From NCBI RefSeq assembly GCF_000814025.1, contig NZ_JWLL01000005.1, forward strand, positions 434,001 through 498,000: a DNA stretch of 64,000 nucleotides. Direction: 5' to 3'. The notes below the pieces were generated by a model, which did no database searches, had not been told where the DNA came from, and saw only the letters and a list, made by a program, of their open reading frames with translations. The stretch's first letter is position 1. Every line of letters begins with the position of its first letter. The translations under genes and the position numbers were made by a program. The stretch comes from Tateyamaria sp. ANG-S1 (lineage in GTDB: Bacteria > Pseudomonadota > Alphaproteobacteria > Rhodobacterales > Rhodobacteraceae). Positions 6,714 to 33,030 of the stretch are shown piece by piece.

Positions 6714-6722
6714 GATAGCCCC

Positions 6723-7787: not shown

Positions 7788-7797
7788 GGTCAGCCTG

Positions 7798-8154
7798 TCA
7801 GTAGTGGCGGAACAGCTTGGCTGAGATACGCCAGGTGCCGTCATCCAGCTGAATGATCTGGAAGTGATTTTCGAAGGACATGCCCAGCAAGTTGCGTTCG
7901 GTGATCGAGGCTGTCGCGATCTTGTCATCGACCTTCAGCCCGGTGATCTCACCGCTGTAGTCGTCGCCGACCTCATTTGCCTCAAGTGCGCCGTAAAATG
8001 GTTCCGGCCCGCCATGTAGCAAGTCCGGCCCGAGCCAGCCGGTCATGACGGCGCCATCGTGAAACACGGTTCTCAATAGGTCGATGTCGCGGGTGCGGGT
8101 GCCTTCGATATAGGCTTCGACAACCGCGCGTGCGGATGCTGTGACATCGGTCAT
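7798..8154 (-). CDS. NTF2-like / SnoaL-type small protein inside the paa operon
   Basis: 118 aa from ATG 8154. The sequence (AYIEGTRTRDIDLLRTVFH..., then a C-terminal beta-rich ITERNLLGMSFENHFQIIQL) has the cone-shaped NTF2-like pattern, resembling the putative lumazine-binding/SnoaL-like group. It lies between paaD (13 nt upstream) and paaE (10 nt downstream), a position empty in E. coli. Function unknown. Members of this fold can be hydrolases, isomerases or binding partners, so it may handle an unstable epoxide or oxepin intermediate; that is inference only. Confidence 0.85.
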   Translation of the reverse strand: MTDVTASARAVVEAYIEGTRTRDIDLLRTVFHDGAVMTGWLGPDLLHGGPEPFYGALEANEVGDDYSGEITGLKVDDKIATASITERNLLGMSFENHFQIIQLDDGTWRISAKLFRHY

Positions 8155-8167
8155 GGCAAGTCCTCCG

Positions 8168-8635
8168 TTAAATGCACTTGAAGTAATCAAAGGGTTCCAG
8201 GCAATCCGTGCAGCGCCATTGCGCCTTGCACGGGGTCGAGCCGAACTGGCTGATCTTCTCGACCTGGCTCGACTGGCAACGAGGGCATCGCTTTGGCCCG
8301 CCCGCGGGTTGCGGTGGCGCGATGCCATAGCTCTCCAGCTTGGCCTTGCCGGTGTCCGTCATCCAGTCGGTTGTCCAGGGCGGGGCGATTTGCCTTTTTA
8401 GAGACAGGTTTTCGATCCCTTTCGCATGCAGCGCGGTCTCAATCTCCATGTTGATGATGCTGGTGGCAGGGCAGCCGGAATAGGTGGGGGTCACGGTCAC
8501 TTCCAGCGTGTCGTCCAGCCACTGCACGTTCCGGATGATCCCCAGATCGACCAGCGAGATGACCGGGATTTCCGGGTCCGGGATGGCTGCAAGCCAGGTC
8601 CAGACCTCTTCCACCGATGCGCGCGTCGTCACCAT
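8168..8635 (-). CDS. paaD: Phenylacetate-CoA oxygenase subunit PaaD (MIP18/DUF59)
   Basis: 155 aa. The N-terminal MIP18/DUF59 domain has DPEIPVISLVDLGI and the conserved cysteine in PTYSGCPAT; the C-terminus has a CPRC...CTDC zinc- or Fe-S-type knuckle followed by FDYFKC. PaaD is needed for activity of the epoxidase and is thought to help in Fe-S or metal-site maturation. The start overlaps paaC by 7 nt. Normal length, all cysteines present. Confidence 0.95.
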   Translation of the reverse strand: MVTTRASVEEVWTWLAAIPDPEIPVISLVDLGIIRNVQWLDDTLEVTVTPTYSGCPATSIINMEIETALHAKGIENLSLKRQIAPPWTTDWMTDTGKAKLESYGIAPPQPAGGPKRCPRCQSSQVEKISQFGSTPCKAQWRCTDCLEPFDYFKCI

Positions 8636-9351
8636 GTCGCATCCGGGTGGCTGCGGGGCAGCACCTGCATCGTCGCCAGCATGTGGCCCAGATGTTCGGT
8701 ATGCCGCGCCCCGGTCTTGCCGCCCATATGCGCAAAGTCACTGTCGGGGCGTGACAAGGTCGCCTCCGCCAAAACAGTCTCTAAATAAGCGTCAAATGCG
8801 GGTCTCAGGGCCGACACGTCCATCAGATCGTCTTCATCCGTGCTGAACATCTCGCCCACATAAGGCCATAGCCGATCCAACGCCGCCTGCATCCGCTCAT
8901 GGCTTTCCTCAGTTCCGTCGCCCAACGCGATGACGGTATCGGAAGAGCGTTCGCGATGATACGTCACCTCTTTCACAGACTTCTGGGCGATGGCGGCAAT
9001 CTCGGCATCCTCATGCTCGGTTAAGGCCTTCAACGCCTCCAGATGCCACGCATCGAACAGGAATTGCCGCATCATGGTGACGCCGAAATCCCGGTTCGGC
9101 TGCTCGACCACCAAGAGGTTGCGAAAGTCCCACGCATCGCGGTGATAGGCGAGCGTGTCAGCAGTCCGCCCCTTGCCCTCACGTTCAGCAGCAAGGCCAA
9201 GCCAAAGCTGCGTTTGCCCGATCAAATCAAGCGCCGTGTTGGCGAGCGCAATGTCTTCCTCCAGCGCCGGCGCATGGCCGCACCATTCCGACACTCGCTG
9301 GCCCAGCACCAGTGTGTTGTCCCCCATGCGGATGAGACCCTGGACGCTCAC
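8629..9351 (-). CDS. paaC: Phenylacetyl-CoA epoxidase structural subunit PaaC
   Basis: 240 aa. Ferritin-like helical protein with LGQRVSEWCGHAPALEEDIAL and ALDLIGQTQLWL, the typical PaaC opening. PaaC lacks a functional di-iron centre in the family and scaffolds PaaA. The start is taken as GTG 9351, coupled to the paaB stop (GTGA); an internal ATG eight codons later is possible, but other PaaC proteins begin upstream of that point. It is flanked by paaB and paaD in the standard order. Confidence 0.95.
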   Translation of the reverse strand: MSVQGLIRMGDNTLVLGQRVSEWCGHAPALEEDIALANTALDLIGQTQLWLGLAAEREGKGRTADTLAYHRDAWDFRNLLVVEQPNRDFGVTMMRQFLFDAWHLEALKALTEHEDAEIAAIAQKSVKEVTYHRERSSDTVIALGDGTEESHERMQAALDRLWPYVGEMFSTDEDDLMDVSALRPAFDAYLETVLAEATLSRPDSDFAHMGGKTGARHTEHLGHMLATMQVLPRSHPDATW

Positions 9352-9632
9352 ATCGCCCCCACATCATCAGGAATGTCGAAGAAAGTCGGGTGGCGATACA
9401 CCTTGTCATCCGCCGGGTCATAGAGTGACCCCTTGTCGTCGGGAGATGATGCCGTGATGTCGGCGGCAGGCACCACCCAGATGCTCACCCCTTCCTTGCG
9501 ACGGGTATAAACGTCGCGCGCGTTTTGGATTGCGTGCTCGGCATCAGCGGCATGAAGCGAGCCGACATGCCGGTGGCTCAGCCCGTGCTGACCGCGAATG
9601 AACACTTCCCAAAGGGGCCATTCCTGTTTCAT
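9348..9632 (-). CDS. paaB: Phenylacetyl-CoA epoxidase subunit PaaB
   Basis: 94 aa from ATG 9632, which overlaps the paaA stop as ATGA. It opens with [21 protein letters not shown], typical PaaB, and continues with [20 protein letters not shown] and [19 protein letters not shown]. PaaB is a small subunit that bridges PaaAC heterodimers in the epoxidase complex. An in-frame extension upstream overlaps paaA and is rejected. Confidence 0.96.
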
Positions 9633-10606
9633 TCCGCCGCCACCTTTGCTGCCCGTTTTTTCGCGGCATGCGCCAGCCGCGCCTCGCGCACCCATGCGCC
9701 ATCGTCCCACGCTTTCTGCCGCGCCTCGATCCGCTCGACCGAACAGGGGCCGTTGCCCTTCAGCACGTCAAAGAACTCGGACCAGTCCGGCTCGGCAAAG
9801 TCGTAGCCGCCCTTTTCCTCGTTCCATGCAAGCGTCTCGTCCGGGATCGTGAGGCCCAGATACTCCGCCTGCGGCACCGTCTGATCCACGAATTTCTGGC
9901 GCAGCTCGTCGTTGGAATTCATCTTGATCTTCCACGCCATCGATTGCTCGGAATGCACGCTTTCCTTGTCCGATGGACCAAACATCATAAGGGACGGATA
10001 CCAGAACCGGTTCAGCGCATCCTGCGCCATGCGCTTCTGCGCTTCGGTCCCGTTCGCCATCTTCATCATGATGTCGAAGCCCTGACGCTGGTGGAACGAC
10101 TCTTCCTTGCAAATGCGCACCATCGACCGAGCATATGGGCCGTACGATGTGCGCTGCAACGGCACTTGATTCATGATGGCGGCTCCATCAACCAACCAGC
10201 CAACCGCACCCATATCGGCCCATGTTAGGGTCGGATACGCAAAGATGGAGGAGTACTTCATCCGCCCATCCAGCAGCATTTCGGTCAGCTCATCGCGGCT
10301 CACACCCAGCGTCTCGGCGGCGCAATACAGGTACAGACCATGTCCGGCCTCATCCTGCACCTTGGCCAGCAGGATCGCCTTGCGTTCCAGCGTGGGCGCA
10401 CGTGTGATCCAGTTGCCTTCGGGCAGCTGGCCGACAATCTCGGAATGCGCATGTTGACTGATCTGTCGGATCAACGTCTTGCGATAGCCTGCGGGCATCC
10501 AATCCTTCGGCTCGATCTTTTCGCCTGCGTCGATACGCGCCTGAAATGCGGCCAGCTTTTCAGGATCGTCCTGCGTCGCTTCGGATGTGATCATCTGTGC
10601 ATACAT
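9629..10606 (-). CDS. paaA: Phenylacetyl-CoA epoxidase catalytic subunit PaaA
   Basis: 325 aa, full length. A ferritin-like fold carrying the di-iron carboxylate ligands in the motifs [10 protein letters not shown] and EESFHQRQG (two E-x-x-H pairs plus separate glutamates). It performs O2-dependent 1,2-epoxidation of the aromatic ring of phenylacetyl-CoA. It sits 4 nt after paaJ and overlaps paaB by 4 nt. Together with paaB, C, D and E the multicomponent monooxygenase is complete. Confidence 0.97.
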
Positions 10607-10610
10607 CGTC

Positions 10611-11813
10611 TCAAGCCCTTTCGAGTATCATGGCGACCCCTTGCCCCACACCCACACACATGGTGCAGAGGGCATAGCGGCCGCCGGTGCGTTTCAATTG
10701 ATAGGCGGCGGTCATCACCAACCGTGCGCCTGACATGCCCAGCGGATGCCCAATCGCGATGGCGCCGCCCTGCGCATTCACGCGCGGATCGTCATCGGCG
10801 ACCCCAAAGCTACGCAGCGTCGCCAGCCCCTGCGAAGCAAAGGCCTCGTTCAACTCTATCACATCCATCTGGTCGATGCTGAGGCCCGCGCGCTTCAGCA
10901 CCTTCTCCGATGCAGGCACCGGCCCGATCCCCATCACGCGCGGCTCAACCCCGGCGGCGCACATGCCAACGATCCGCGCCATAGGTGTCAGGCCCTGCGC
11001 CTCTGCCGCCTCGGTCGAGGCAATGAGCATCGCTGCCGCACCGTCATTCACGCCGGAGGCATTGCCTGCCGTCACGCTCAACTCTGTCCCGTTGATCCCA
11101 CGCAAGCCCGCCAGCTTCTCTGCACTTGTACTGGGGCGCGGGTGCTCATCCGTATCCACCAAAACCGGCTCGCCCTTGCGCTGCGGGATCGTCACCGGCG
11201 CAATTTCCTCGGCAAAGGCGCCAGCCTCGTGTGCCGCAGCCCAACGCGCCTGCGACCGGGTGGCAAAGGCATCCTGCGCCTCGCGCTCGACCTTCCAGTC
11301 AGCCGCAACGTTGTCAGCGGTCTGCGGCATGGAATCGATGCCATATTCCGACTTCATCTTCGGGTTCACAAAACGCCAGCCGATGGTTGTGTCGTACACC
11401 TGATTTGCACGCGAAAACGCGGCTTCCGCCTTTGGCATGACAAAAGGCGCGCGGCTCATGCTTTCGATCCCGCCGGCGATGACCATATCCATGTCGCCCG
11501 CCTTGATCCCACGCGCCGCGATGCCGACGGCGTCCATGCCCGACGCACACAGCCGGTTCACCGTTATCCCCGGCACATCCACCGGCAGACCCGCCAGCAA
11601 TCCGGCCATACGCGCCACATTGCGATTGTCCTCGCCCGCCTGATTGGCGCAGCCCATGACGACATCATCGATGGCGGCCCAGTCAACATCCGGATTGCGC
11701 GCCATCAAGGCAGCAATCGGCGCTGCCGCCAGATCATCGGCCCGAACGCCGGACAAAGCACCGCCATATCGCCCGATAGGCGTGCGCTGCGCGTCACAAA
11801 TCCATGCGTCCAT
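10611..11813 (-). CDS. paaJ: 3-oxoadipyl-CoA / 3-oxo-5,6-dehydrosuberyl-CoA thiolase
   Basis: 400 aa from ATG 11813, preceded by the strong ribosome site AGGAGGAG; a longer reading frame to 11864 would cover the operator region. Thiolase residues are present: nucleophile C89 in [21 protein letters not shown] with the base histidine, and the final [10 protein letters not shown] cysteine. It carries out both thiolytic steps of the phenylacetate pathway and closely resembles PcaF of the beta-ketoadipate route, so service in both is possible. First gene of the paa operon. Confidence 0.94.
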
Positions 11814-11864
11814 GAAACTCCTCCTGACGGGAAAGTAGGGCAGTCGCCGATTCCGATCAATCAT

Positions 11865-11905
11865 AAATGTTACACAGATGCTTGATTGGTGGAAAATTTG
11901 TAACG
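11865..11905. promoter_or_regulatory. Candidate operator between paaJ and the E1 fusion gene
   Basis: The divergent spacer holds an inverted pair, GTTACA at 11869-11874 and TGTAAC at 11899-11904, 30 bp start to start, close to three helical turns. The right half reads TTTGTAACG. The same nonamer occurs 50 bp upstream of paaI (48470-48478), so both paa promoters share it. PaaX is the obvious candidate binder. Inference; no consensus for PaaX in Rhodobacterales was available to me. Confidence 0.45.
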
Positions 11906-11947
11906 CTTTATCACGCCCACTGGACCATTCCGCACCGGCAAGGTTCT

Positions 11948-14167
11948 ATGTCGCCACATCAGCCACTTGATACGGACCCCGCCATGGACCGCGCCGCAAT
12001 TGTTCACGACAACTTCCACCGGCGGCTCAAGGCCAGCGATCTGCCTTCGGGCGAGGGCGCAGGCGACATGGAGCCCGACGTGCTTCTGTCTCTCTACCGC
12101 GCGCAATGCCTGTCCCGGCAACTCGACCGCACCAGTCGTGCGATGCAGAAGGCAGGGCAGGGATACTACACCATCGGCTCCAGCGGGCATGAGGGGATGG
12201 CGGGCGTTGCCCACGCCCTGCGCCCCACCGATATGGCGTTCCTGCATTACCGCGACGCGGCGTTTCAGATCGCGCGCGCGGGGCAGGTGCCCGATCAGAA
12301 CCCCGCATGGGACATCCTGCTCAGCTTTGCGGCGTCCTCTGAGGACCCAATGTCCGGCGGTCGCCATAAGGTGCTCGGGTCCAAGGCACTCAACATCCCG
12401 CCCCAAACCTCGACAATCGCGAGCCATCTGCCCAAGGCGGTGGGCGCTGCCTATTCCATTGGCCTTTCCAAACGGCAGCGCCCGGAACACGCGCACCTGC
12501 CCGATGACGCGATCATCATGTGCAGTTTCGGCGATGCCTCTGCCAACCACTCCACGGCCCAGGGCGCGATTAACACCGCCTGCTGGACCAGCTTCCAAAA
12601 CGTACCGCTGCCCCTGCTGTTCGTGTGCGAGGACAATGGAATTGGCATATCGACCCCCACACCCTCCGGCTGGATCGCCGCCAACTTCTCCGCCAAGCCG
12701 GGCCTGACCTATTTCGCCTGTGACGGCCTCAATGTCGCGGAAACCGCGCGCGTCGCGGCTGAGGTGGCTGCGTTCGTCCGGCGGCACAAACGCCCCGCCT
12801 TCCTGCACATCCGGACCGTGCGGCTCTATGGACACGCGGGCTCCGACGTCGAGGCGACCTACCGTGCCAAGGCTCAGATCGAAGCTGATGAGGGCAACGA
12901 CCCGCTCCTTCACACGGTCCGTCTTTTGCGCGACATCGGTGCGTCCACGCCCGAGGACGCGTTGGCCCTTTATGCAGAGATAGGCAAAGAGTGCGAAGTG
13001 CTCTCCGCCAAGGCGACGAAACGCCCCCGTCTGCAAATTGCCGCAGATGTCAGTGCCAGCCTGATCCCGCCAAAGCGCACATGCGCGCCCACGAACGGCC
13101 CGTCCACCTTGCAACGCAGCAAAATCTTCGGCACCGACCTGCGCAGCAGCGAAGAACCGCAGGTGATGAGCAAACTGATCTCTTGGGCCCTCACCGACCT
13201 CATGCTCGAACACCCCGAAATCGTCATGGCAGGCGAGGACATCGGCAAAAAGGGCGGCGTCTACGGCGCGACACAGAAACTGCAATCCCGCTTCGGCCCC
13301 CACCGCGTCATCGACACACTACTCGACGAACAATCCATCCTCGGCCTTGCCATCGGCATGGCCCACAACGGCTTCATCCCGATCCCCGAAATTCAGTTTC
13401 TTGCTTACCTCCACAATGCCGAGGATCAGTTGAGGGGCGAGGCGGCCACACTCCCCTTCTTCTCCAACGGCCAATACGCCAACCCCATGGTCCTGCGAAT
13501 CGCCGGTCTGGGCTATCAGCGCGGCTTCGGCGGCCACTTCCACAACGACAACTCCCTTGCCGTCCTGCGTGACATCCCTGGCATCGTCATCGCTTGCCCC
13601 TCGCGCGGCGATGACGCGGCCAAGATGCTCCGCGAAGCGGTGCGGCTGGCCCGCGAAGAGCAGCGCGTCGTGGTCTTCATCGAACCCATAGCCCTCTACC
13701 CCATGCGTGACCTGCAAACCGAAGGCGACAGAGCGTGGATGTCGACCTACCCTGCGCCCGACGAACGGATCGCGCTGGGCGAGGTCGGGGTCAGTGGAAA
13801 TGGAACGGATCTCGCCATCATAACATACGGAAACGGACGGTACCTGTCGGAACAAGCCGCCAAGCGCCTGCGCAGCGAGGGCATCAATGCGCGCATCATC
13901 GACATGCGCTGGCTCGCACCCATGCCCGAAGCTGCCCTGATCGAACAGGCCCAAGCGTGCCGCGCCGCTCTCATCGTAGACGAATGCCGCCGGACCGGCA
14001 GCCAGTCCGAGGCGCTCATGACCCTCTTCACCGACGCAGGCATCCCAAACATCGCCCGCATCACGGCCGAGGATTGCTTCATCGCCACTGGCCCCGCCTA
14101 TGCTGCCACACTCCCATCGACAGACGGCATCGTGGACGCCGCCAGAACCCTCTGCGCCAAGTCTTGA
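11948..14167 (+). CDS. Fused E1 alpha-beta 2-oxoacid dehydrogenase component
   Basis: 739 aa from ATG 11948 with AAGG upstream; ATG 11984 is an alternative, and an earlier ATG at 11867 lies in the operator region. Residues about 20-380 are an E1 alpha thiamine-diphosphate domain (GSSGHEGMAG, FGDASANHS at 194-202, EDNGIGIS); about 407-739 are an E1 beta domain beginning MSKLISWALTDLM with GEDIGKKGGVYG and the transketolase-like C-terminus. It decarboxylates a branched-chain or related 2-oxoacid. No E2 or E3 gene is nearby, so it must use partners encoded elsewhere. Divergent from paaJ. Confidence 0.9.
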   Translation: MSPHQPLDTDPAMDRAAIVHDNFHRRLKASDLPSGEGAGDMEPDVLLSLYRAQCLSRQLDRTSRAMQKAGQGYYTIGSSGHEGMAGVAHALRPTDMAFLHYRDAAFQIARAGQVPDQNPAWDILLSFAASSEDPMSGGRHKVLGSKALNIPPQTSTIASHLPKAVGAAYSIGLSKRQRPEHAHLPDDAIIMCSFGDASANHSTAQGAINTACWTSFQNVPLPLLFVCEDNGIGISTPTPSGWIAANFSAKPGLTYFACDGLNVAETARVAAEVAAFVRRHKRPAFLHIRTVRLYGHAGSDVEATYRAKAQIEADEGNDPLLHTVRLLRDIGASTPEDALALYAEIGKECEVLSAKATKRPRLQIAADVSASLIPPKRTCAPTNGPSTLQRSKIFGTDLRSSEEPQVMSKLISWALTDLMLEHPEIVMAGEDIGKKGGVYGATQKLQSRFGPHRVIDTLLDEQSILGLAIGMAHNGFIPIPEIQFLAYLHNAEDQLRGEAATLPFFSNGQYANPMVLRIAGLGYQRGFGGHFHNDNSLAVLRDIPGIVIACPSRGDDAAKMLREAVRLAREEQRVVVFIEPIALYPMRDLQTEGDRAWMSTYPAPDERIALGEVGVSGNGTDLAIITYGNGRYLSEQAAKRLRSEGINARIIDMRWLAPMPEAALIEQAQACRAALIVDECRRTGSQSEALMTLFTDAGIPNIARITAEDCFIATGPAYAATLPSTDGIVDAARTLCAKS

Positions 14168-16836: not shown

Positions 16837-18065
16837 ATCGCCCCCTTGTCCGCCAGCGCGGCGATGTCCTCAACGCTCAGCCCCAAACTTCTCCAAACTT
16901 CGCCCGCATGCTCTCCAAGCTGTGGTGGTGGTGTCGCTACTTTCAACGGGGTCCCATCTAATTTGACGCCGGTATTAACGACCTCAATGTCGTGCCCCAC
17001 ACCGGGCACATCTGCATAGTGGGTCATCAAACCGCGCTCCGCCACCTGTGGATGCGCCAGCACGTCTGGCACCGACATCACGGCTCCGGCGGGCACACCG
17101 ATGGCGTTCAACGCCTGCGCCAAGTCCCGCGCCGAGCGATCCGCCAGCGCATCTTCAATCTCCGAACGCAATTCCATACGGTTCCGTTTGCGATTTTCCC
17201 TCGTGTGGTACTCCGGCTTGTCTCGCAGCGCAGCCAAGCCCAGGAAGTCCGTCAGCAAAACCCACTGCTCATCCTTGTTCGCCGCGATATTGATCAGCCC
17301 GTCACCCGTCCGAAACGTCCCCGACGGGGCAGAGGTAGGATTCTCGTTCCCATTGGCCCCCGGCTCAACACCCGCAATCACGTGATTAGAGACAACCCAC
17401 CCCATTGTCGCCAACACGCTTTCCAGCATCGAGCAGTCGATAAACGCCCCACGGGGACGCGCGTTCAGGGCCGATGCCACAGCAAAGGCCGCCGTCATCC
17501 CGCCAACCGTGTCGGCGACCGGATAGCCCACGCGCAAGGGCGCGCTGTCGCCATCTCCGGTGATCGACATGACGCCCGAAACGCCCTGCACAATCTGGTC
17601 GTAAGCCGGGCGATCCACCCACGGTCCGTCCTGCCCAAAACCCGAGATGGCGCAGTAGATCAGATCGGGTTTGTGCCCTTTCAGAACCTCATACCCAAGG
17701 CCCAATCGCGTCATCACACCCGGGCGAAAGTTCTCGACCACGACATCTGCCGTCTCGACCAGCCGTAGAAACAGCGCCTTTCCTTCGGGATGCTTGAAGT
17801 TCAATGTGACGGATTTTTTCCCTGCATTCTGTGCAAGGAAAGACACCCCCATCCCCTTCGCATTCAACTCGGGATCGGCACCCAATTGGCGGGCCAGATC
17901 ACCGCGCCCCGGCGCTTCGACCTTGATCACTTCGGCGCCCATATGCGCCAGTTGGTGGCAGCAAAACGGCCCTGCCAGAACGTTGGTTAGATCAAGAACG
18001 CGGACTCCGTCCAACGGGGCAGGGCGGGGGTTCACCTCGCCGTACCCGTGGGGATCAATCCCCAT
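16833..18065 (-). CDS. Family III CoA-transferase (CaiB/BaiF type)
   Basis: 410 aa, the usual size. N-terminal 'GVRVLDLTNVLAGPFC' and the catalytic aspartate region RPAYDQIVQGVSG, with GFGQDGPW before it, identify the family; the aspartate forms the mixed anhydride with the carboxylate substrate. It moves CoA onto an organic acid, here probably the substrate of the adjacent TctABC importer. It overlaps tctA by 11 nt and the lyase by 4 nt, so all five genes are one transcription unit. Confidence 0.93.
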   Translation of the reverse strand: MGIDPHGYGEVNPRPAPLDGVRVLDLTNVLAGPFCCHQLAHMGAEVIKVEAPGRGDLARQLGADPELNAKGMGVSFLAQNAGKKSVTLNFKHPEGKALFLRLVETADVVVENFRPGVMTRLGLGYEVLKGHKPDLIYCAISGFGQDGPWVDRPAYDQIVQGVSGVMSITGDGDSAPLRVGYPVADTVGGMTAAFAVASALNARPRGAFIDCSMLESVLATMGWVVSNHVIAGVEPGANGNENPTSAPSGTFRTGDGLINIAANKDEQWVLLTDFLGLAALRDKPEYHTRENRKRNRMELRSEIEDALADRSARDLAQALNAIGVPAGAVMSVPDVLAHPQVAERGLMTHYADVPGVGHDIEVVNTGVKLDGTPLKVATPPPQLGEHAGEVWRSLGLSVEDIAALADKGAI

Positions 18066-19569
18066 CCGCCACCCCGGCCGCCCGCGCCCGGGCGCGCCGC
18101 GCGCGGTAGCTGGGCAGGATGACCAGCAAGCAGGCGATAACCAACAAGCCCAGCGTCATTGGGCGTTCCCAGATAAAGCTGATCCCGTCATAAAGTTGCA
18201 TGGACCGGCTGAAGTTGTCCTCAAGCATCCCGCCAAGGATGAAGCCGATCAACAGTGGAGCAAGCGGGTAGTCCGCAAAGCGCAGGATCGTGGCGCAGAT
18301 GCCGAAGCCGACGAGCAGCAGCAGTTCGGTCGCGTTGTTCTGCCCGATATAGGCCCCCATCAGTGTGAAGAAGAGGATGAAGGGGATCAGGAAGTTGCGC
18401 GGCACCGCAAGGATTTTCGCGATATAGGGGATCAGCGGCAGGTTCAGGATCAGAAGGATCAGGTTGCCGATATACATCGAGATAATAACGGCCCAGAAGA
18501 TCTGCGGGTCGTCGACCATCAGGCGTGGGCCGGGTGTTACATTCAGTGCGATGAGCGCGCCGAGTAGGATCGCCGTGGTGCCTGAGCCGGGGATGCCGAG
18601 GGTCAGAAGCGGTACAAACGATCCGGTGCAGGCGGCGTTATTGGCGGTCTCCGGCGCGGCGAGGCCTTTGACGGAGCCTTTGCCGAACTCTTGCTTCTCC
18701 TTCTCGGGCGCGATGTTGCGTTCAACCGCATAGCCGAGGAATGAGGCGATGGTCGCGCCTGCGCCCGGCAGGACACCGATGAAGAAGCCTTGCAGGGACT
18801 GACGGCCAACGACCGGCGCGATGGATTTTGCCTCGTCTTTTGTGATCCGTAGGTCCTTGATGTCTCCGGACTGGCCAGTCTTGGAACGGCTGGGGTCCAT
18901 TACGAGGTACAGCGCTTCGGGCAATGCGAACATGGCCATGGCAAGCGTGATGAAGGCAAAGCCCGATTGCAGGTCCATCAGGCCCATGGTGAAGCGGGGC
19001 ATGTTGAACAGTGCACCTTCGCCCACTGTCGCCATGATAAGGCCAAGCAGGGTCATCATGATCGCTTTTGCCACTTGGCCCGTGCCAGCGAAGGCCGCGA
19101 TGGCCGAAAGGCCGACGACCATAAGCGCGAAGTATTCGGCCGAGTGGAACAGCAGCGCGACCGACGACAGCATCGGCGCAAAGATCATCAACAGGATGGC
19201 TCCGATGGAGCCGCCGCAGAAGGACGCGATAGCGGCGATGGTGAGCGCTTTGCCCGCCTTGCCGTCGCGGGCCATCGGGTAGCCATCAAAGCTGGTCGCC
19301 ACCGTGCCCGCGACCCCTGGCGCGTTGAGCAGGATGGATGAGGTCGAGCCGCCGAAGATCGCGCCGTAGTAAACGCCCGCGAGCAGGATGAGGGCGGCGG
19401 AGGGGTCGCCGAGCGAGATGGCGACGGGGATCATGATGGCAATGATCGACATCGGGCCAAGGCCGGGCAGCATGCCGATGAATGTGCCGATCAGGCAGCC
19501 GCCGATGACCATCAAGAGGTTCTGGAGGGAGAAGGCCGTTTGCAGGCCGATCAGGATACCTTCGAGCAT
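18055..19569 (-). CDS. tctA: Tripartite tricarboxylate transporter large permease TctA
   Basis: 504 aa from ATG 19569; an in-frame extension to 19617 covers the spacer and tctB and is rejected. About 11-12 membrane spans with the two family signatures GCLIGTFIGMLPGLGPMS near the N-terminus and GFFIGVLPGAGATIASFLGY in the middle, the two conserved substrate-site loops. It imports a tri- or dicarboxylate with cation gradient energy, receiving it from TctC. It begins 4 nt after the tctB stop and overlaps the CoA-transferase gene by 11 nt. Confidence 0.96.
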   Translation of the reverse strand: MLEGILIGLQTAFSLQNLLMVIGGCLIGTFIGMLPGLGPMSIIAIMIPVAISLGDPSAALILLAGVYYGAIFGGSTSSILLNAPGVAGTVATSFDGYPMARDGKAGKALTIAAIASFCGGSIGAILLMIFAPMLSSVALLFHSAEYFALMVVGLSAIAAFAGTGQVAKAIMMTLLGLIMATVGEGALFNMPRFTMGLMDLQSGFAFITLAMAMFALPEALYLVMDPSRSKTGQSGDIKDLRITKDEAKSIAPVVGRQSLQGFFIGVLPGAGATIASFLGYAVERNIAPEKEKQEFGKGSVKGLAAPETANNAACTGSFVPLLTLGIPGSGTTAILLGALIALNVTPGPRLMVDDPQIFWAVIISMYIGNLILLILNLPLIPYIAKILAVPRNFLIPFILFFTLMGAYIGQNNATELLLLVGFGICATILRFADYPLAPLLIGFILGGMLEDNFSRSMQLYDGISFIWERPMTLGLLVIACLLVILPSYRARRARARAAGVADGD

Positions 19570-19573
19570 GTCT

Positions 19574-20068
19574 TTACACCCCCATGAATGCAGGCAACGG
19601 GCGCAGGAAGATGCCAAGGACGACCTGCACGAGATACCAGACGACGCCGGTGGCGATGCCCGCGACCACGATCATCGTGATCCAGCGGCGTTCGCCGAGG
19701 ATCACGGAGCCCATGACGAGGAAGCCGACGGTGGCGATGATGAACCCGGCGGGGCGGAGGAGCAGGGCATATGCGACCATGAGACCGAGGAGCAGACCGG
19801 CCTGGCCGAGTTTGAACTCCTTGAGCTGGCGGTAGACGATGACGGAGGGGTTTTCCTCGCGCGGTTTGTCGGACTTCTCAAGCCCGAGTACGATGATCAG
19901 ACCGACGATGATGCCCATGACGCTCAGCACCTTGGGGAAGGTCGAGGGCCAGATGGGATTGCGCTGCATGAAAGGAGCCAGGCTGCCGTCCATGGTGAAC
20001 CACGCGGCGTAGCCGTAGGCGGCGAAGATGCCCAAAAGGATCAGTCCGATCCAGCGATCGAGTGCCAT
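19574..20068 (-). CDS. tctB: Tripartite tricarboxylate transporter small permease TctB
   Basis: 164 aa from ATG 20068, preceded by a GGGGGG-rich ribosome site; the longer frame to 20116 translates the 20088-20103 palindrome and is unlikely. Four membrane helices, typical for TctB, with a charged cytoplasmic loop EKSDKPREENPS. The subunit pairs with TctA. There is a 143-bp gap to tctC that holds a hairpin and a palindrome, which may lower expression of the membrane genes relative to the binding protein. Confidence 0.93.
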   Translation of the reverse strand: MALDRWIGLILLGIFAAYGYAAWFTMDGSLAPFMQRNPIWPSTFPKVLSVMGIIVGLIIVLGLEKSDKPREENPSVIVYRQLKEFKLGQAGLLLGLMVAYALLLRPAGFIIATVGFLVMGSVILGERRWITMIVVAGIATGVVWYLVQVVLGIFLRPLPAFMGV

Positions 20069-26138: not shown

Positions 26139-27882
26139 GCCGTTCCGCTTTTGCTCCGGGATGTGTGACTGCGCCCTTGTACGTTTCGCCCACAAGCTGC
26201 GCATATTTCCACAGCGCGCCCGAGGCATAGATGTTTTCGCGTGGGCCGGACCAGTTGGCTTTGCGTTCCGCCAGTTCCTCGTCCGTGAGGTCCACGTTGA
26301 TTGTGCCTTCGATCGCGTTGATCGTGATCACGTCGCCATCTTTCAGCAGGGCAATGGGGCCGCCATGGGCTGCTTCGGGGCCGACGTGGCCGATGCAGAA
26401 GCCGCGTGTTGCGCCCGAGAAACGGCCGTCGGTGATCAGCGCCACCTTCTTGCCCATGCCCTGGCCGGACAGGGCCGCCGTGGTGGCCAGCATCTCGCGC
26501 ATGCCGGGGCCACCGGACGGTCCCTCGTTGCGGATGACGAACACGTCGCCTTCCTCGTAGGTGCGGTTCTGGACCGCATCAAAGGCATCCTGTTCGCATT
26601 CGAAGACGCGCGCCGGACCGGTGAAGATCTGGTGCTGGGCTTCCATGCCCGCGACCTTCACGATGGCACCTTCGGGGGCCACGTTGCCCTTCAGGCCAAC
26701 AACGCCACCGGTCTTGGTGATCGGGTTTTCGATGGGGTGGATGACACGGCCATCAGCTTCGAGGCTGATCTTGTCCAGTTCTTCGCCGATGGAGTAGCCG
26801 GTTGCGGTGATGCAATCCTCGTGGATCAGGCCCGCTTTGCGCAGTTCCTTCATCACGACATAGATGCCGCCGACTTCATACATGTCCTTGGCAACGTATT
26901 GACCGCCCGGTTTGAGGTCGACGAAGTAGGGCGTGTCGCGGAAGATTTCGCAGACGTCATCAAGGTAGAAGTCGATCCCGGCCTCGTGCGCCATGGCGGG
27001 CAGGTGCAGACCGGCGTTGGTCGAGCCACCCGTGCAGGCCACGACGCGGGCCGCGTTTTCGAAGGCTTTGCGCGTGCAGATGTCGCGGGCGCGGATGTTT
27101 TTCTCGATCAGGTTCATGACCGCGGCGCCGGACGCTTCGCCGTATTGGTCACGGGATTCGTACGGTGCCGGGGCACCCGCGGAGTTGGGCAGGGCGAGGC
27201 CGATGGCTTCGGACACGCAGGCCATCGTGTTGGCGGTGAACTGGCCGCCGCACGCCCCGGCAGAGGGGCAGGCGACGCGCTCGAGGATGTCGAGCTCCGC
27301 CTCGGTCATAGCACCGCTTTGCTGCTGGCCGACGGCTTCGAACATGTCCTGCACGGTCAGATCGCGGTTGGCGTAGGCCTCGGGCACCTTGGCACCTACG
27401 GGTGCGCGGCCCGGAAGGATGGATCCGCCGTAGAGGAAGACGGACGGTACGTTGAGACGGATCATCGCCATCATCATGCCAGGCAGAGATTTGTCGCAAC
27501 CGGCCAGACCCACGATGGCGTCATAGCAGTGGCCGCGCATGGTCAGCTCAACCGTGTCTGCGATGGCTTCGCGGGAGGCGAGCGAGGAGCGCATGCCCTC
27601 GTGCCCCATGGCAAGGCCGTCGGTGACGGTGATGGTGGTGAACTCGCGTGGGGTGCCGCTGGCCGACTTCACGCCCATCTTCACCGCTTGGGCCTGCCGG
27701 TTCAGGGCGATGTTGCACGGAGCCGCTTCGTTCCAGCAGGTGGCCACACCAACGAGAGGTTGGTGAATCTCCTGCTCCGTCATGCCCATGGCATAGTAGT
27801 AGGACCGGTGCGGCGCGCGTGCGGGCCCTTCGGTCACGTGGCGGCTGGGTAGCTTGGACTTGTCGAACTTGCCTGTAAGCAT
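26119..27882 (-). CDS. ilvD: Dihydroxy-acid dehydratase
   Basis: 587 aa from ATG 27882; the in-frame extension to 28014 covers the divergent promoter region and lacks family similarity. Fe-S ligand cysteines are in [21 protein letters not shown] and [24 protein letters not shown] and [15 protein letters not shown] are IlvD/Edd signatures. It makes 2-oxoisovalerate and 3-methyl-2-oxovalerate in valine/isoleucine synthesis. A close alternative is a sugar-acid dehydratase of the same family, but length and motifs favour IlvD. Confidence 0.95.
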
Positions 27883-28050
27883 CTGGCGTCTCCCCCGAAA
27901 AAGCGTCTGGACTGCAATAGCCATTGGCCCGCTGCGCTGCAAGCGCTCGCGGTTGTAATAGGTGGGGGCTGGCACTAGGTTCTGCGGACGGGTCGCGCCC
28001 GGTTGCTTTTCCAACCGTTTGGACAGGGGTGCGGGCCATCAGGACGTGCC

Positions 28051-31000
28051 ATGGATTCCACCATATTCGCTTTCATCTGGAAGCATTCCAAGCGTGATCA
28101 ATTGATGTTGCTGGGGCTGACGCTTGTCACGTTCCCGTTTCTCTATGCCACGCTGGAATTGCCGAAGCGGATTATCAACGACGCGATTGGTGCGACCAGC
28201 AGTATCGTAGATGTGTTCGGCCTTGAGCTGACGCAAATCCAGTTCCTGCTGGCTTTGTGCTTTGGTTATCTGGGTGCCGTGCTGGCCCACGGCCTGCTGA
28301 AGATGCGCTTGAATACGATGAAGGGTGTGACGGCCGAACGGCTCCTGCGTCGCTTCCGCTTCCAGTTGATCAGCCGCATGCTGCGCTTTCCGCGCAGCTA
28401 CTTCCGTTCGACCAGCCAGGGTGAGTTGGTCAGCATGGTCACGTCCGAGGCCGAGCCGATGGGCGGGCTGATGGGCGACATGGTGGCACAGCCTGTGTTC
28501 CAGGCAGGCCAGATGCTGATCATCGTGGTGTTTCTGTTCCTGCAATCGGTGTGGTTCGGGCTGGCCGGTATCGCGCTTATCCCGTTGCAGGCATGGATCA
28601 TTCCGATGCTGCAGCGCCAGATCAACCTGCTGAACAAGGAACGTATCCGCGAGATTCGATCCTTCTCTTCCGAGATTGGGGAGAGTGCTGCAGGTATTTC
28701 GGATCTGCGCACCAATGGTGGCCTGCGGTATCGCCTTGCGCAGTTCACCGACCGGCTGAGCAAGCTGTTCGAGGTGCGCTTCCAGATCTACCAGAAAAAG
28801 TTCTTTATGAAGTTTCTGAACAACTTCATCACGCAGCTTACGCCGTTCTTTTTCTACTCGGTCGGGGGCGTGCTGGCCATTCGCGGTGAAATCACCGTGG
28901 GGGCGCTGGTGGCGGCGATCGCGGCCTACAAGGACCTGTCGAGCCCCTGGAAGGAACTGCTGACCTACTACAACCAGACGCAGGATATGTCCCTGCGGTG
29001 GGAGATCGTGACTGACCGGTTTGCGCCGCGCGACATGATTGATGAGAGGTTGTTCGAGGGCGAGCCGGACGTCATTCCACACCTGCAAGGCGACATCGTT
29101 CTGGACAACGTGACCGTCCGCAATGCCGAAAACACGCCCGTGCTTGAGCGCATCGACCTTACGATTCCCAAAGGCGCGCGGGTGGCCATTCAGGTCAAGA
29201 ACCAGACCGAACGAACTGCCATTGCCGAGCTATTGGTGCGAGAGGTGCTGCCGACCCGTGGGTCGATCACCATCGCCGGTCACGATCTGTCGACCTTGCA
29301 CCAGGAGGTCGTGTCGGCCCGCATCGGATATGCGCAATCGCGCCCCTATCTGTTCGATGGCACATTGGGCACCAACCTGTTGATGCCGCTGATGACGCGA
29401 CCCAACACGGTCCCGTGGGGGCAGGGCCGCAAGGATCGCTACATGACCGAAGCGCTGCGGTCCGGCAACAGCCCGGACCGGGTCGATACCGAGTGGGTCG
29501 ATCCCGCCCTTGCCGGTCTGGGCACCGAGGATGAGGTGCGCGCGTGGTGGTTTGCGCTGGTCGAGGCGATGGGCATCGACGAATTCATGTTCCGTCGTAT
29601 GCTGGTCAGCCGCATGGATCCCAAGCAGCATCCGGAGCTGGCCAAGGCCATCGTTGCGTTGCGCCCGGTCGTTGAAGAGCGCTTGCGCGAGCAAGGGTTG
29701 AGCGATGCGGTTTATCGCTTCGATCCCGAAGAGTTCAACCCGGCGGTTCCGCTTGGCGGCAACCTGCTTTTTGCAGCGCCCTCCCGCGATATTTCGCAAC
29801 AGGGGCTGGCGCGGGACGAACGGTTCATCAATCTGGTGTTTGAACACGGGCTTGCCGAACAAGGCATCGCCATCTCGCAAACCCTGATCGAGACGCTGCA
29901 CCAGACCTTTGGCCGTGATGGCACGAGCCACCCGCTGTTTACCGCACTCAACATCGAGGAAGAGATGTATGAGCAACTGGTCGATATTTCCGCCCGCCGC
30001 CGCGAACGTGGGGATGTGGCGCTGACCGATGATGAGTTTGCGCTACTTCTGACCGTGCCATTTGCCTTTACCGCCGAACAGATTGGTCCGGCGTTCCCCG
30101 AAAGCTTCAAAAAAGAGATTGTGCAGATCCGTAAGACCAGAGGCTCCGCCCTGCGTGAGCAGACGCAGGAGTTCTTTATTCCCATTGCACCGGAGACATA
30201 TCTGCCGCGTCTCACGCTGGTGGAAAACACCCTGTATGGTCGGATTTCGATGTTTGCCGGTGCCAAGGAAGAAGTAATCGAGGACCTCGTGGCCGATGTT
30301 GTGAAAGAGCACGATCTGCGCCGTCAGGTGGCCGAGACGGTGTTCGATATTCGCACCGGTCTGGGCGGCACGAACCTGCCTACCATCTTTCATGAACGGG
30401 CGGCGTTTTCCCGGGCGGGGATCAAGCGCCCGGACATCCTTCTCCTGGACCGCGCGCTTGCCAGCCACGGCAGCGAAGAGCGTCGCAAAACCCGAGAAGC
30501 GCTGCGCGAGCTGCTGCCAGACTCCACGCTGATTTTTTTGGAAGAGAGCTTTAACAACCCCGACGCCTACGACCTGTTTGTCGAGATCAAGGATGGGCGG
30601 ATTGACGGCGTTCAGGCCCATGACGAAGACGACGAGGAAGCCGACGATCTGAGCCGCAAGCTGCGTGTGATTTCGCGAGCGGACCTCTTTTCGGGCGTCA
30701 ACAGTCGTAACCAGCGCCTGCTGGCTTTTGCCGCGCAGTGGTACACCGCCGAACCGGGGCAGCGCATCTTTTCCATGGAGGAAAAGCCCGATGCTGCCTA
30801 TCTGTGCGTCAAGGGAAGTGCCGTGCTGAGCTACGACGGTGAGAATGGCGAAGACCGACATGTGACCACGATTGAGCCTGGCCGCCTGATCGGCGATCTG
30901 GCCATCATCCTGAACGAGCCGCGGCAACTGCATTTGACGGCCCTGACCGAAGCGACTTTCCTGCGCATCGGTGCGGCCGAATTCCGCGCTGTTCTGGAGG

Positions 31001-31134
31001 AGGACGCCACCGTGCTGCGCAGCCTGCTGAACACCGTTGCCAGCCATTTGACCGGCGCTGCCGAGTTGCTGCGTCAGGCCAATGTGCAGATCCCCCAGGA
31101 CGAGGGGCCGCCACCGCCGCCATTGGATCGCTGA
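28051..31134 (+). CDS. Degenerate ABC exporter-like protein with cyclic-nucleotide-binding domain
   Basis: 1027 aa from ATG 28051. Residues about 10-320 form a six-helix ABC transmembrane domain (LRRFRFQLISRMLRFPRSYF). The nucleotide-binding domain from about 345 has lost every catalytic motif: the Walker A position reads VKNQTERTA (382-390), signature LPTIF (776-780), Walker B DILLLD then R801 instead of glutamate, and E832 at the switch-histidine position. An insert of about 325 residues (445-770) splits the domain. A CRP-like cyclic-nucleotide-binding domain (about 885-1005) closes the protein. ATP hydrolysis is not expected. Its stop overlaps the CPBP protease start (TGATG). Function unknown. 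Confidence 0.9.
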   Translation: MDSTIFAFIWKHSKRDQLMLLGLTLVTFPFLYATLELPKRIINDAIGATSSIVDVFGLELTQIQFLLALCFGYLGAVLAHGLLKMRLNTMKGVTAERLLRRFRFQLISRMLRFPRSYFRSTSQGELVSMVTSEAEPMGGLMGDMVAQPVFQAGQMLIIVVFLFLQSVWFGLAGIALIPLQAWIIPMLQRQINLLNKERIREIRSFSSEIGESAAGISDLRTNGGLRYRLAQFTDRLSKLFEVRFQIYQKKFFMKFLNNFITQLTPFFFYSVGGVLAIRGEITVGALVAAIAAYKDLSSPWKELLTYYNQTQDMSLRWEIVTDRFAPRDMIDERLFEGEPDVIPHLQGDIVLDNVTVRNAENTPVLERIDLTIPKGARVAIQVKNQTERTAIAELLVREVLPTRGSITIAGHDLSTLHQEVVSARIGYAQSRPYLFDGTLGTNLLMPLMTRPNTVPWGQGRKDRYMTEALRSGNSPDRVDTEWVDPALAGLGTEDEVRAWWFALVEAMGIDEFMFRRMLVSRMDPKQHPELAKAIVALRPVVEERLREQGLSDAVYRFDPEEFNPAVPLGGNLLFAAPSRDISQQGLARDERFINLVFEHGLAEQGIAISQTLIETLHQTFGRDGTSHPLFTALNIEEEMYEQLVDISARRRERGDVALTDDEFALLLTVPFAFTAEQIGPAFPESFKKEIVQIRKTRGSALREQTQEFFIPIAPETYLPRLTLVENTLYGRISMFAGAKEEVIEDLVADVVKEHDLRRQVAETVFDIRTGLGGTNLPTIFHERAAFSRAGIKRPDILLLDRALASHGSEERRKTREALRELLPDSTLIFLEESFNNPDAYDLFVEIKDGRIDGVQAHDEDDEEADDLSRKLRVISRADLFSGVNSRNQRLLAFAAQWYTAEPGQRIFSMEEKPDAAYLCVKGSAVLSYDGENGEDRHVTTIEPGRLIGDLAIILNEPRQLHLTALTEATFLRIGAAEFRAVLEEDATVLRSLLNTVASHLTGAAELLRQANVQIPQDEGPPPPPLDR

Positions 31135-32042
31135 TGGGTGTTCTGAGTTTCGACTATCGCCCACATGCGCTGATGATTGATCCGGCGCGCGACCGGGCGC
31201 AGCTTTGGCGACTGGCCTTTGGCATCGTATTGGTTGCCGGTTTCTTTCTGGTGCTCAGCAATCTTGTCTTGGGCACGATTCTTGGGCTGCTTGAGCCGCA
31301 AACTGCCAGTGCGGTGTTGCGGGATGCGCAGACGGGTCGGACCGCGGGCGGGATGCTGTTGCTGTTGTTCCAGTTGGGTCTGTTGGGTGTTGCCGCGGCC
31401 ATGGTCGTGATCATGGTGCACAAGAGGCAGCCCGCGACGCTGATTGGCCCCATTGGTCTGGCGGTGCGTCAGTTCGGTGCGGTGTTGTTCATGATGGTGC
31501 TGCTCACCATCGCGCTGTGGGTTTTGCCGCCCTATGACATGGGTGAGGGGACGTTGACCCTTAACATGTCGGTCAGCCGCTGGCTGCTCTTGCTGCCCAT
31601 CGCCATCGTTGCGGTGCTTGTGCAGATCGGGGCGGAAGAGATCGTGTTTCGCGGTTATCTGCAGCAGCAACTTGCGGCGCGGTTCCGTTCGCCTTTGATC
31701 TGGATGATCCTGCCTGCCGTCTTGTTCGGTGCCGGGCACTACCTGCCCGAAAGTGCTGGCAGCAATGCGTTGACGATTGCGATCTGGGCGACTGTTTTTG
31801 GTGTCCTTATGGCCGATCTGACGGCTCGCTCCGGCACGCTTGGTCCCGCGATGGCGGTGCACTTCGCCAACAACATCTCGGCTATGGTGTTGACGGCCAC
31901 GCCGGACGAGATGTCGGGCCTTGCGCTTTACGTTTTGCCGTTCGGGATGGCGGACGAGGCGGCGATGGCCGCTTGGCTGCCTGTTGATTTCGGTTTCATG
32001 CTGGTGAGCTGGTTGGCCGCGCGTCTTGCCATCCGCGCTTGA
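31134..32042 (+). CDS. CPBP family intramembrane metalloprotease
   Basis: 302 aa, about eight membrane helices. The CPBP/Abi motifs are complete: EEIVFRGYL (E168, E169, R173), FGAGHYLPE with a histidine, and HFANN with the last histidine. Members cleave prenylated or membrane peptides, or act in immunity to bacteriocins. Its ATG overlaps the stop of the pseudo-ABC gene by one base, so the two products are probably partners. Substrate unknown. Confidence 0.9.
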   Translation: MGVLSFDYRPHALMIDPARDRAQLWRLAFGIVLVAGFFLVLSNLVLGTILGLLEPQTASAVLRDAQTGRTAGGMLLLLFQLGLLGVAAAMVVIMVHKRQPATLIGPIGLAVRQFGAVLFMMVLLTIALWVLPPYDMGEGTLTLNMSVSRWLLLLPIAIVAVLVQIGAEEIVFRGYLQQQLAARFRSPLIWMILPAVLFGAGHYLPESAGSNALTIAIWATVFGVLMADLTARSGTLGPAMAVHFANNISAMVLTATPDEMSGLALYVLPFGMADEAAMAAWLPVDFGFMLVSWLAARLAIRA

Positions 32043-32100
32043 TTGCATTTGACGCTGCCCCGGATTATCTGACGGAACGGAACCGCAGCAGGAAGCCCAC

Positions 32101-33030
32101 ATGAACTGGATCACCAACTATGTCCGGCCCCGGATCAACTCGATCTTTTCGCGGCGCGAGACCCCGGACAATCTGTGGACCAAGTGTGACAACTGCGGCA
32201 CGATGCTGTTTCACCGCGAGCTGTCGGACAACCTGAATGTCTGCACCAACTGCGGGCACCACATGGCGGTCACGCCCCGCGACCGCTTCACGGCGCTGTT
32301 CGACGGCGGCATCTTTACCGAGGTCGAGGTGCCTGCGCCGCTGACCGACCCGCTGCAATTCCGGGACCAGAAGAAGTATCCCGATCGCATGAAGGCGGCG
32401 CAGAAATCGACGGGCGAGAACGAAGCGATGCTGGTCGCCCGGGGCGAGATTGGGCGCACGCCCATCGTCGCCTGCGCGCAGGACTTTTCGTTCATGGGTG
32501 GATCCATGGGCATGTATGTGGGCAACGCCATCATCGCGGCCGCCGAAGAGGCGGTGAAGTTGAAGCGCCCGCTGGTTTTGTTTTCAGCCGCCGGTGGCGC
32601 ACGGATGCAGGAGGGGATCCTGAGCCTGATGCAGATGCCACGCACGACTGTTGCGGTGCAGATGCTGAAAGAGGCGAACCTGCCTTACATCGTCGTACTG
32701 ACCCATCCCACCACGGGTGGTGTGACGGCCAGCTATGCGATGCTGGGCGACGTTCATATCGCCGAACCCAACGCGCTGATCTGCTTTGCCGGGCCGCGGG
32801 TGATCGAACAAACCATTCGCGAAAAACTGCCCGAAGGGTTCCAGCGGGCCGAGTACCTGCTGGACCACGGCATGCTTGACCGCGTGACCAAGCGGACCGA
32901 GATGCGGGATGAGTTGATCACCATCACCCGGATGCTCATGGGCGAGCCGCCTGCTGTCAAAGGCGACTTGCCAGCCCCCGCGCCCCTGCCTGTCGAAGAA
33001 CCCGCTGCCGAGGATGCGGCAAAGGAATGA
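32101..33030 (+). CDS. accD: Acetyl-CoA carboxylase carboxyltransferase subunit beta
   Basis: 309 aa. The N-terminal zinc ribbon cysteines are C29, C32, C48 and C51; the crotonase-type carboxyltransferase body follows, with [12 protein letters not shown] and [17 protein letters not shown]. With AccA it moves carboxyl groups from biotin to acetyl-CoA. AGGAAG precedes the ATG, and folC overlaps by 4 nt, the usual accD-folC pairing. The C-terminal tail is rich in proline, alanine and glutamate, as in other Rhodobacterales. Confidence 0.97.

Follow-up and report, generated by a model that had tools for sequence, protein, structure and literature searches.

Gene and domain architecture

The window, by which is meant here the whole analysed stretch of 64,000 nucleotides from Tateyamaria sp. 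ANG-S1 (contig NZ_JWLL01000005.1, forward-strand positions 434,001 to 498,000), contains a long gene whose product has the build of an ATP-binding cassette (ABC) exporter with broken ATPase motifs, a large insertion and a cyclic-nucleotide-binding (cNMP) tail. A previous sequence-only reading had described it as an open frame of 1027 codons with an exporter-type membrane domain at one end and a CRP-like cNMP domain at the other, and all of this was borne out. The frame runs without interruption from an ATG at 28051 to a stop codon at 31132-31134, and Pfam recognized ABC_membrane at residues 66-290 (E 1.8e-19), that is, a six-helix exporter membrane domain, as well as cNMP_binding at the C-terminus (E 1.6e-13). 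The features of the gene, and those of related loci discussed below, are collected in Table 1.

Between these two domains, the nucleotide-binding domain (NBD) was barely visible to profile searches, with ABC_tran at residues 365-470 staying below threshold (23.7 bits against a cut-off of 25). Its framework had nevertheless been said to align still, and in agreement with this the AlphaFold model of residues 343-854 matched the NBD of ComA (3vx4; Z 22.8, 2.4 Å, 221 residues aligned), so that a RecA-like and helical NBD fold is predicted. The best fold match of the protein was PCAT1 (8vox, Z 23.6), and MsbA and SUR2B chains were also among the matches. The top NCBIfam matches were likewise MsbA and bacteriocin exporters, all of them far under their cut-offs (MsbA_lipidA, E 1.1e-37, 129.8 bits against 602). 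The Pfam scan of the protein revealed no peptidase domain, and the N-terminal C39 domain of PCAT and HetC is consequently lacking. The nearest named homologue, with 96% identity, is a Tateyamaria omphalii record (L018). An Rfam search of positions 27600-32200 at gathering thresholds returned no small RNA or riboswitch.

Table 1. Coordinates of the features of the pseudo-exporter gene in the window and of related loci (positions in related loci are those of the locus named)
Feature	Position	Strand	Description
Whole gene	28051..31134	+	ABC exporter-type protein of 1027 aa; degenerate ATPase site, repeat-bearing insert, cNMP domain at the C-terminus
Exporter-type membrane domain	28051..29040	+	Residues 1-330; most conserved part of the family
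NBD, first part	29068..29388	+	Residues 340-446; degenerate Q-loop (S430)
Degenerate Walker A, VKNQTERTA	29194..29220	+	Residues 382-390
Family-defining insert	29389..30255	+	Residues 447 to ~735, ~289 extra residues
Internal repeat copy 2 (FNPAVPLGGNLLFAAP element)	29650..29886	+	Residues 534-612
Internal repeat copy 3 (YLPRLTLVENTLYGRI element)	30118..30354	+	Residues 690-768; continues into the remaining NBD
Degenerate ABC signature, LPTIF	30376..30390	+	Residues 776-780
Walker B remnant	30436..30453	+	Residues 796-801; D800 kept, catalytic Glu replaced by R801
Switch histidine column	30544..30546	+	E832
cNMP-binding domain	30751..31005	+	Residues 901-985; phosphate-cassette-like G948, D949, R958; Pfam
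Glycan module, L366 (C31:90001-110000)	6469-13234 and 17597-19784	-	Two GT28-like, two GT4, His phosphatase, Methyltransf_17; OppB/OppC nearby
Membrane-only genes in copper operons	L397 11848-13152; L398 11866-13359; L399 11848-13152; L401 8001-9200		

Loss of the ATPase site

The replaced motifs that the sequence-only reading had listed were each found where it had put them, VKNQTERTA from residue 382, LPTIF from residue 776, R801 in the place of the catalytic glutamate and E832 in that of the switch histidine. The intact Walker A, Walker B glutamate, signature and switch histidine by which a canonical exporter is recognized are therefore absent. The same losses were followed in a Roseobacter-clade set of 86 proteins, composed of the window protein, 80 loci and five more, paralogues included, from which one match below 290 bits (the membrane-only L112) was omitted. 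Not one of the 86 has the Walker A lysine, and in 85 an arginine stands there; the Q-loop glutamine, the signature glutamine (column 780) and the switch histidine are missing from all 86, and the signature serine (column 777) is found in only five. The catalytic glutamate occurs once, in the window genome's own paralogue (L002), and the Walker B aspartate (D800) is kept in 72. At the columns where the Walker A Gly-Lys pair would be expected, E387 is present in 84/86 and R388 in 85/86, and this near-invariance indicates that the ATPase site was fixed anew rather than left to drift.

The analysis was widened to 156 distinct full-length family members, leaving out open reading frames (ORFs) below 800 aa and near-duplicates and retaining 12 Roseobacter-clade representatives. 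Six key residues were scored, namely the Walker A Lys and Ser/Thr, the Q-loop Gln, the Walker B Asp, the catalytic Glu and the switch His, and no member possesses all six. Among the 140 members outside the Rhodobacterales-type clade, the Walker A lysine is kept in 78, where D or E mostly comes after it. The signature glutamine is present in 124 of the 140, the catalytic glutamate in 72, the switch histidine in 42 and the Walker B aspartate in 22. It had been proposed that homologues with intact Walker A and B at these columns would reduce the case to one decayed copy; the close homologues are degenerate without exception, whereas distant ones do keep parts of the site. Since close homologues are degenerate and distant ones partly intact, the loss was gradual over the family and is fullest in the Rhodobacterales clade. 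Most likely, the family descended from a working exporter that already carried the insert.

Selection and inverted conservation

Across five pairs from the Tateyamaria clade, the ratio of nonsynonymous to synonymous substitution rates (dN/dS) was 0.031-0.062 for the whole gene and 0.03-0.08 in the membrane domain, the NBD, the insert and the cNMP domain each, and long open frames were found in all 86 Roseobacter-clade members. The earlier suggestion that a pseudo-ATPase is being maintained by selection is thus upheld. Local decay of a single copy was considered and rejected, because the motif losses are common to 86/86 relatives and dN/dS is low (0.03-0.06).

In the 156 members, 76 of the 326 scored membrane-domain positions are conserved at 85% or more, 32 of these 76 being polar or charged. 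Of those 32, only 3-6 are found in four canonical exporters. Conservation was also compared at a matched pairwise identity of about 0.41, setting five samples of 30 family members against 30 canonical exporters of the same class, with three ORFs of odd length (469, 815 and 829 aa) included among the latter. In the family, 68-73 of the 297 membrane-domain positions and 10-19 of the 214 NBD-core positions were conserved at 85% or more; for the canonical exporters the figures were 19 of 290 and 75 of 221, respectively. Conservation is therefore inverted with respect to canonical exporters, high in the membrane domain and low in the ATPase domain.

The repeat-built insert

The presence of extra residues between the Q-loop region and the signature had been recognized correctly, but their number, given as about 325, is nearer 289 when judged by the alignment to PCAT1, in which the window protein advances from 445 to 749 where the PCAT1 chain advances from 585 to 600. 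The insert is made of tandem repeats, since an element that follows the Q-loop and ends in NLLxG-like motifs occurs twice more ahead of the signature. The second and third copies are clearly related (hhalign probability 98.6, E 4.7e-16, 78 columns), and profile comparison of the first copy with each of them gave weak probabilities of 53 and 62. In the AlphaFold model the insert is mostly helical, and matching short strand-helix-strand elements are predicted at 554-577 and 709-732.

The possibility that the insert is a known domain was explored and set aside. In a profile search against PDB sequences no match reached an E-value below 0.55. For a separate AlphaFold model of residues 440-740 (mean predicted local distance difference test score 79), Foldseek gave no match below E 0.6 and VIA no Z score exceeding 2.6. 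No PDB relative of the insert was accordingly found by sequence or by fold, which does not in itself prove a new fold.

Family range, phylogeny and paralogues

An insert profile built from 31 sequences detected the family in 131 of 385 alphaproteobacterial genomes and in 31 of 398 genomes sampled over the phylum, all 31 being the window's own genome or belonging to the same family or the same class. A membrane-domain tree of 72 of the 156 members, three membrane-only rows and three exporters gathered the 16 Rhodobacterales-type rows into one clade (SH-aLRT 100), and these proteins are the most degenerate clade of the family. The root and the placement of the membrane-only rows are unsure in this tree because the outgroup branches are very long.

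Within the window's taxonomic family, 22 of 149 genomes carry a window-type copy (at least 57% identity, near full length), and 21 of these 22 also carry a second paralogue with 47-53% identity, the exception (G083) having two other copies instead. Five further genomes have a second-type copy only, and four (G760, G815, G821 and G839) were left unclassed for paralogue type, their matches being partial, split or about 30% identical. The window genome's own second copy (L002; 51% identity, C27:162554-165547) has degenerate Walker A, signature and switch-histidine positions and keeps the Walker B aspartate and glutamate. With both proteins degenerate, neither a homodimer of the window protein nor its pairing with L002 would contain a complete canonical composite site. 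The window protein and the second paralogue may act as homodimers or as a heterodimer, and their co-occurrence suggests the latter.

Several observations were made around these paralogues. In L120 the second paralogue (8554-11595, minus strand) is divergent from a DUF3307 gene (11715-12095, plus strand), and members of the same gene cluster adjoin the second paralogue in L118, L122 and L123. In Ruegeria TM1040, a gene of the DUF294 nucleotidyltransferase-like type (L118 18838-19015) is found some 8 kb away from the paralogue. A third Rhodobacterales subtype, with 58-59% identity to the window protein, is represented by L119 and L113; the L119 gene is located on a Sulfitobacter plasmid and adjoins a glycosyltransferase cluster.

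The annotated copies that were seen carry only the labels "ABC transporter" or "cyclic nucleotide-binding protein", and such plain labels hide the number of family members. No description of the family came up in searches of open-licence PMC papers, a coverage outside which most subscription journals fall.

Association with cNMP proteins and a glycosyltransferase module

Over the 143 insert-family loci examined class-wide, a cNMP domain is fused to the ABC protein in 17 and encoded by a separate downstream gene on the same strand in 117, making 134 in total. In 115 of these downstream genes the cNMP domain begins between -60 and 600 nt from the end of the ABC frame, and two lie beyond those limits. 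No cNMP gene was seen at 29 control loci of canonical exporters, where the flanks inspected were only 1.5 kb. The stand-alone cNMP proteins shown mostly have a classical phosphate cassette (GEIAIL..PRTATV-like); one stand-alone relative is a Rhizobium protein of 155 aa (L116 10800-11267). In the window protein the cNMP fold retains the cassette arginine, Arg958, which is present in 99 of 99 aligned rows, and Asp or Glu occupies column 949 in 97, one of the 99 rows (L139) being a non-cNMP tail that was included by mistake. Class III cyclase matches number five in the window genome, and one such domain match is located at C28:498848-499303, about 850 bases beyond the end of the window.

Glycosyltransferases are the second recurrent association. 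At least three are encoded in 85/143 loci and a histidine phosphatase in 77/143, and in the gene-order analysis, which used 139 of the 143 loci, the usual order was GT28-like, GT4, GT4, phosphatase and GT28-like, with these genes on the other strand from the ABC and cNMP genes. In many loci a Methyltransf_17 gene comes next on the ABC strand, and the cluster was present in 36/139. Opp-type importer genes are found near some of the 143 loci (substrate-binding protein 14, OppB 11, OppC 11). Named plasmid examples come from Rhizobium leguminosarum, Sinorhizobium meliloti, Azospirillum lipoferum and Sulfitobacter. The window genome carries the module on contig C31, apart from both of its pseudo-exporter genes. 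Co-occurrence was scored over 149 genera of the window's family, accepting the pseudo-exporter at E up to 1e-100 and the marker glycosyltransferase at E up to 1e-50; both were present in 31, the glycosyltransferase only in five, neither in 113 and the pseudo-exporter only in none, with two or three of the 31 pseudo-exporter genomes having only a distant copy of about 30% identity.

For S. meliloti, a passage of one paper names SMb20813 an msbA homologue (PMC10945364), a passage of another mentions SMb20811 as a variant site (PMC6180224), and a passage of a third places smb20804 and smb20805 with K-antigen polysaccharide (PMC5539429). From its position, SMb20813 would be the gene in L114.

Membrane-only relatives in copper-resistance operons

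Relatives consisting of the membrane domain only were also identified, and five plasmid records were inspected out of the 30 listed among 351 matching. These proteins have 399-497 aa, none of the five has an ABC_tran match and no cNMP match was found. Four of the five belong to copper-resistance operons with an azurin-like protein, a copper oxidase and a copper P-type ATPase, in Phaeobacter (two plasmids), Roseovarius and Thalassospira; the fifth, from Defluviicoccus, stands beside other genes. Similar genes are present in L125, L129 and L131, the operon of L129 having been scanned protein by protein, and each of these three copies retains 28 of the 32 conserved polar membrane sites. The same three copies have 5-6 histidines in their first 60 residues. 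The copper-operon copies on the Phaeobacter, Roseovarius and Thalassospira plasmids go by the annotation "ABC transporter transmembrane domain-containing protein" or "ABC transporter ATP-binding protein". This branch is the strongest hint that the membrane domain may act without ATP.

The neighbouring CPBP gene

A CPBP gene, whose product has the EExxxR, FxxxH and HxxN motifs, overlaps the stop codon of the window gene and is next downstream in 76 of the 77 window-type loci whose downstream sequence extends to 1.2 kb or more, a set from which L019, L046 and L054 are excluded as falling below the length cut-off. It had been suggested that the ABC protein and the CPBP protein may form a membrane signalling pair, a proposal that the wider gene-neighbourhood survey does not sustain as an obligate partnership. 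The accD gene is found downstream in 77/77 of the same loci and directly follows the ABC gene in L043 and L054. A CPBP-like gene is present in each of the 22 genomes carrying a window-type copy and in 101 of the 149 family genomes overall, 75 of which have no ABC protein; conversely, five genomes have the ABC protein and no CPBP-like gene. In all 15 inspected stretches that lack the ABC gene, the order CPBP-accD-folC is kept, with ilvD just upstream in six, and two of the 15 genomes carry the second paralogue elsewhere. No CPBP match occurs in the 143 class-wide loci. The two are moreover separate proteins, unlike the ABC_perm_CPBP fusion (NF041647), for which the CPBP protein scored 38.9 bits against a cut-off of 435. 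CPBP was accordingly rejected as an obligate partner, the conserved partners being instead the cNMP protein and the glycosyltransferase module. CPBP is probably a bystander, and most simply the ABC gene would have ended up between ilvD and CPBP.

Comparison with known systems

ABC transporters are defined by ATP-driven transport. As far as its sequence tells, the window protein has a known fold and fails the catalytic definition of an ABC exporter. It resembles the homodimeric exporters MsbA and PCAT in the fold of the membrane domain and the NBD framework, and the family differs from them in lacking the full ATPase set in all 156 members, in its insert, in its inverted conservation and in its cNMP partner. 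CFTR and SUR are ABCC proteins that act as a channel or channel regulator; CFTR, which is under the control of phosphorylation, retains one catalytic site. The likeness to the family would lie in the use of an ABC fold for gating rather than pumping, and a SUR2B chain is among the fold matches noted above. The membrane-only proteins of the copper operons share the membrane-domain signature, with 28 of the 32 conserved polar sites in each of the three scored, and differ in having neither an NBD nor a cNMP match and in their copper context.

According to passages of a study on HetC of Nostoc, this peptidase-containing ABC exporter requires its cNMP domain for function, and that domain bound ppGpp, not cAMP, in vitro (PMC10986499). 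An ABC exporter is joined to a cNMP domain in both cases; the cNMP domain of HetC is N-terminal, and HetC further has a C39 peptidase and an ATPase residue that it requires, whereas in the family described here the cNMP domain is C-terminal or separate, no peptidase was found and the ATPase motifs have been lost. Among exporters with a single degenerate site are TmrAB, TM287/288, ABCB2/B3 and MRP1, and degenerate sites bind ATP without hydrolysis in exporters that retain one working site (PMC7756269). Non-catalytic residues at nucleotide sites of an exporter fold are common to both groups, but those exporters keep one working composite site, while the window protein and its paralogue lost both Walker A and signature. 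The loss of the signature as well argues against the ATP-holding arrangement of such exporters.

Functional interpretation and alternatives

The reading favoured here is tentative and a little more apt to prove wrong than right: the window protein would be a membrane gate or translocator of a surface-glycan system, independent of ATP and controlled by a nucleotide ligand, with ATP hydrolysis presumably lost and the NBD turned into a signal-transmitting domain. In such a mechanism, a small nucleotide (cAMP or cGMP, perhaps ppGpp as for HetC) would bind the cNMP domain, and its binding would rearrange the paired pseudo-NBDs and the repeat-built insert. This rearrangement would open or close the charged cavity of the membrane domain, and a molecule made by the glycosyltransferase module, for example a glycolipid or an oligosaccharide, would pass or be held without being driven by ATP. 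The earlier proposal of a sensor, scaffold or regulated channel agrees with this insofar as a regulated role not driven by ATP fits the data, which do not distinguish among the three. A wider claim is possible but doubtful, namely that ABC exporters in Alphaproteobacteria gave rise to an ATP-independent class in which a pseudo-NBD relays a cNMP signal to a glycan gate and an NBD-less branch serves copper resistance.

Several results weigh against the gate or translocator. In the fused Rhodobacterales-type cNMP cassette the glutamate is mostly aspartate and the usual RTATV run after the arginine is missing, which makes the ligand uncertain, and in nine of the 143 loci the stretch examined encodes no cNMP protein, in one of them (L265) because the contig ends. 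Fewer than three glycosyltransferases are found in 58 of the 143 loci, and no glycosyltransferase-model match occurs near the window copy or at any of 80 window-type loci, so that the glycan link there depends on co-occurrence; the corresponding Fisher p of about 4e-27 is uncorrected for shared ancestry. The best-preserved member, L232, has five of the six key ATPase residues, and because of this and of the Walker B aspartate and glutamate of L002, ATP binding or slow ATP hydrolysis may persist in parts of the family. Finally, the copper-operon relatives could mean that the membrane domain handles something else, for instance a metal.

The alternatives divide over whether anything crosses the membrane and whether ATP is spent. 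It is unlikely, though worth weighing, that the protein is a sensor or scaffold that passes a nucleotide signal to the glycosyltransferases or another envelope enzyme and transports nothing. The lost ATPase motifs, the cNMP partner in 134/143 loci, the genetic link to glycosyltransferases and an insert without a fold match, which could dock enzymes, would all suit such a role; yet conservation is highest in the membrane domain, with its 32 conserved polar positions, and related membrane domains stand alone in copper operons without cNMP domain or NBD, which together point to chemistry inside the membrane domain. Quite unlikely as well is a hidden working exporter, either a heterodimer with an ATP-hydrolysing half-exporter or a protein using ATP slowly in an unusual site. 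Degenerate sites are common in heterodimeric and full exporters and can hold ATP, according to the same paper (PMC7756269), D800 persists in 72/86, L232 is near-canonical, L002 keeps its Walker B pair, and all 22 window-type genomes have another family member, which in 21 is the 47-53% paralogue. Against this, Walker A and signature, the two halves of a composite site, are both lost (S777 in 5/86, Q780 in 0/86), so that a canonical partner alone would not complete a site, L002 is itself degenerate in Walker A, signature and switch histidine, and the conservation of the NBD is inverted.

A signalling unit of the ABC protein with the overlapping CPBP protease is highly improbable. Its case rests on the adjacency in 76/77 loci, the stop-codon overlap and protease-type motifs in the window, and the CPBP-like gene of all 22 window-type genomes, and it is countered by accD in 77/77 loci and straight after the ABC gene in L043 and L054, by CPBP without the ABC protein in 75 genomes, by its constant place beside accD-folC (15/15) and by its absence from the 143 class-wide loci. 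That the gene is a functionless, decaying exporter remnant is hardly credible; the lost ATPase motifs would be expected of one, but the long frames in 86/86, a dN/dS of 0.03-0.08 in every domain and the newly near-invariant E387 and R388 speak against it.

Significance

These findings describe a broad, conserved family of bacterial proteins whose ATPase motifs are missing or damaged and whose membrane domain is what selection guards most. They suggest that exporter-type transporters can be rebuilt into signal-controlled machines that are not run on ATP, and they make testable the question of whether the membrane fold of an ABC exporter can serve as a ligand-controlled gate. The family also points to a glycan module common to many alphaproteobacteria, rhizobia and marine roseobacters included.

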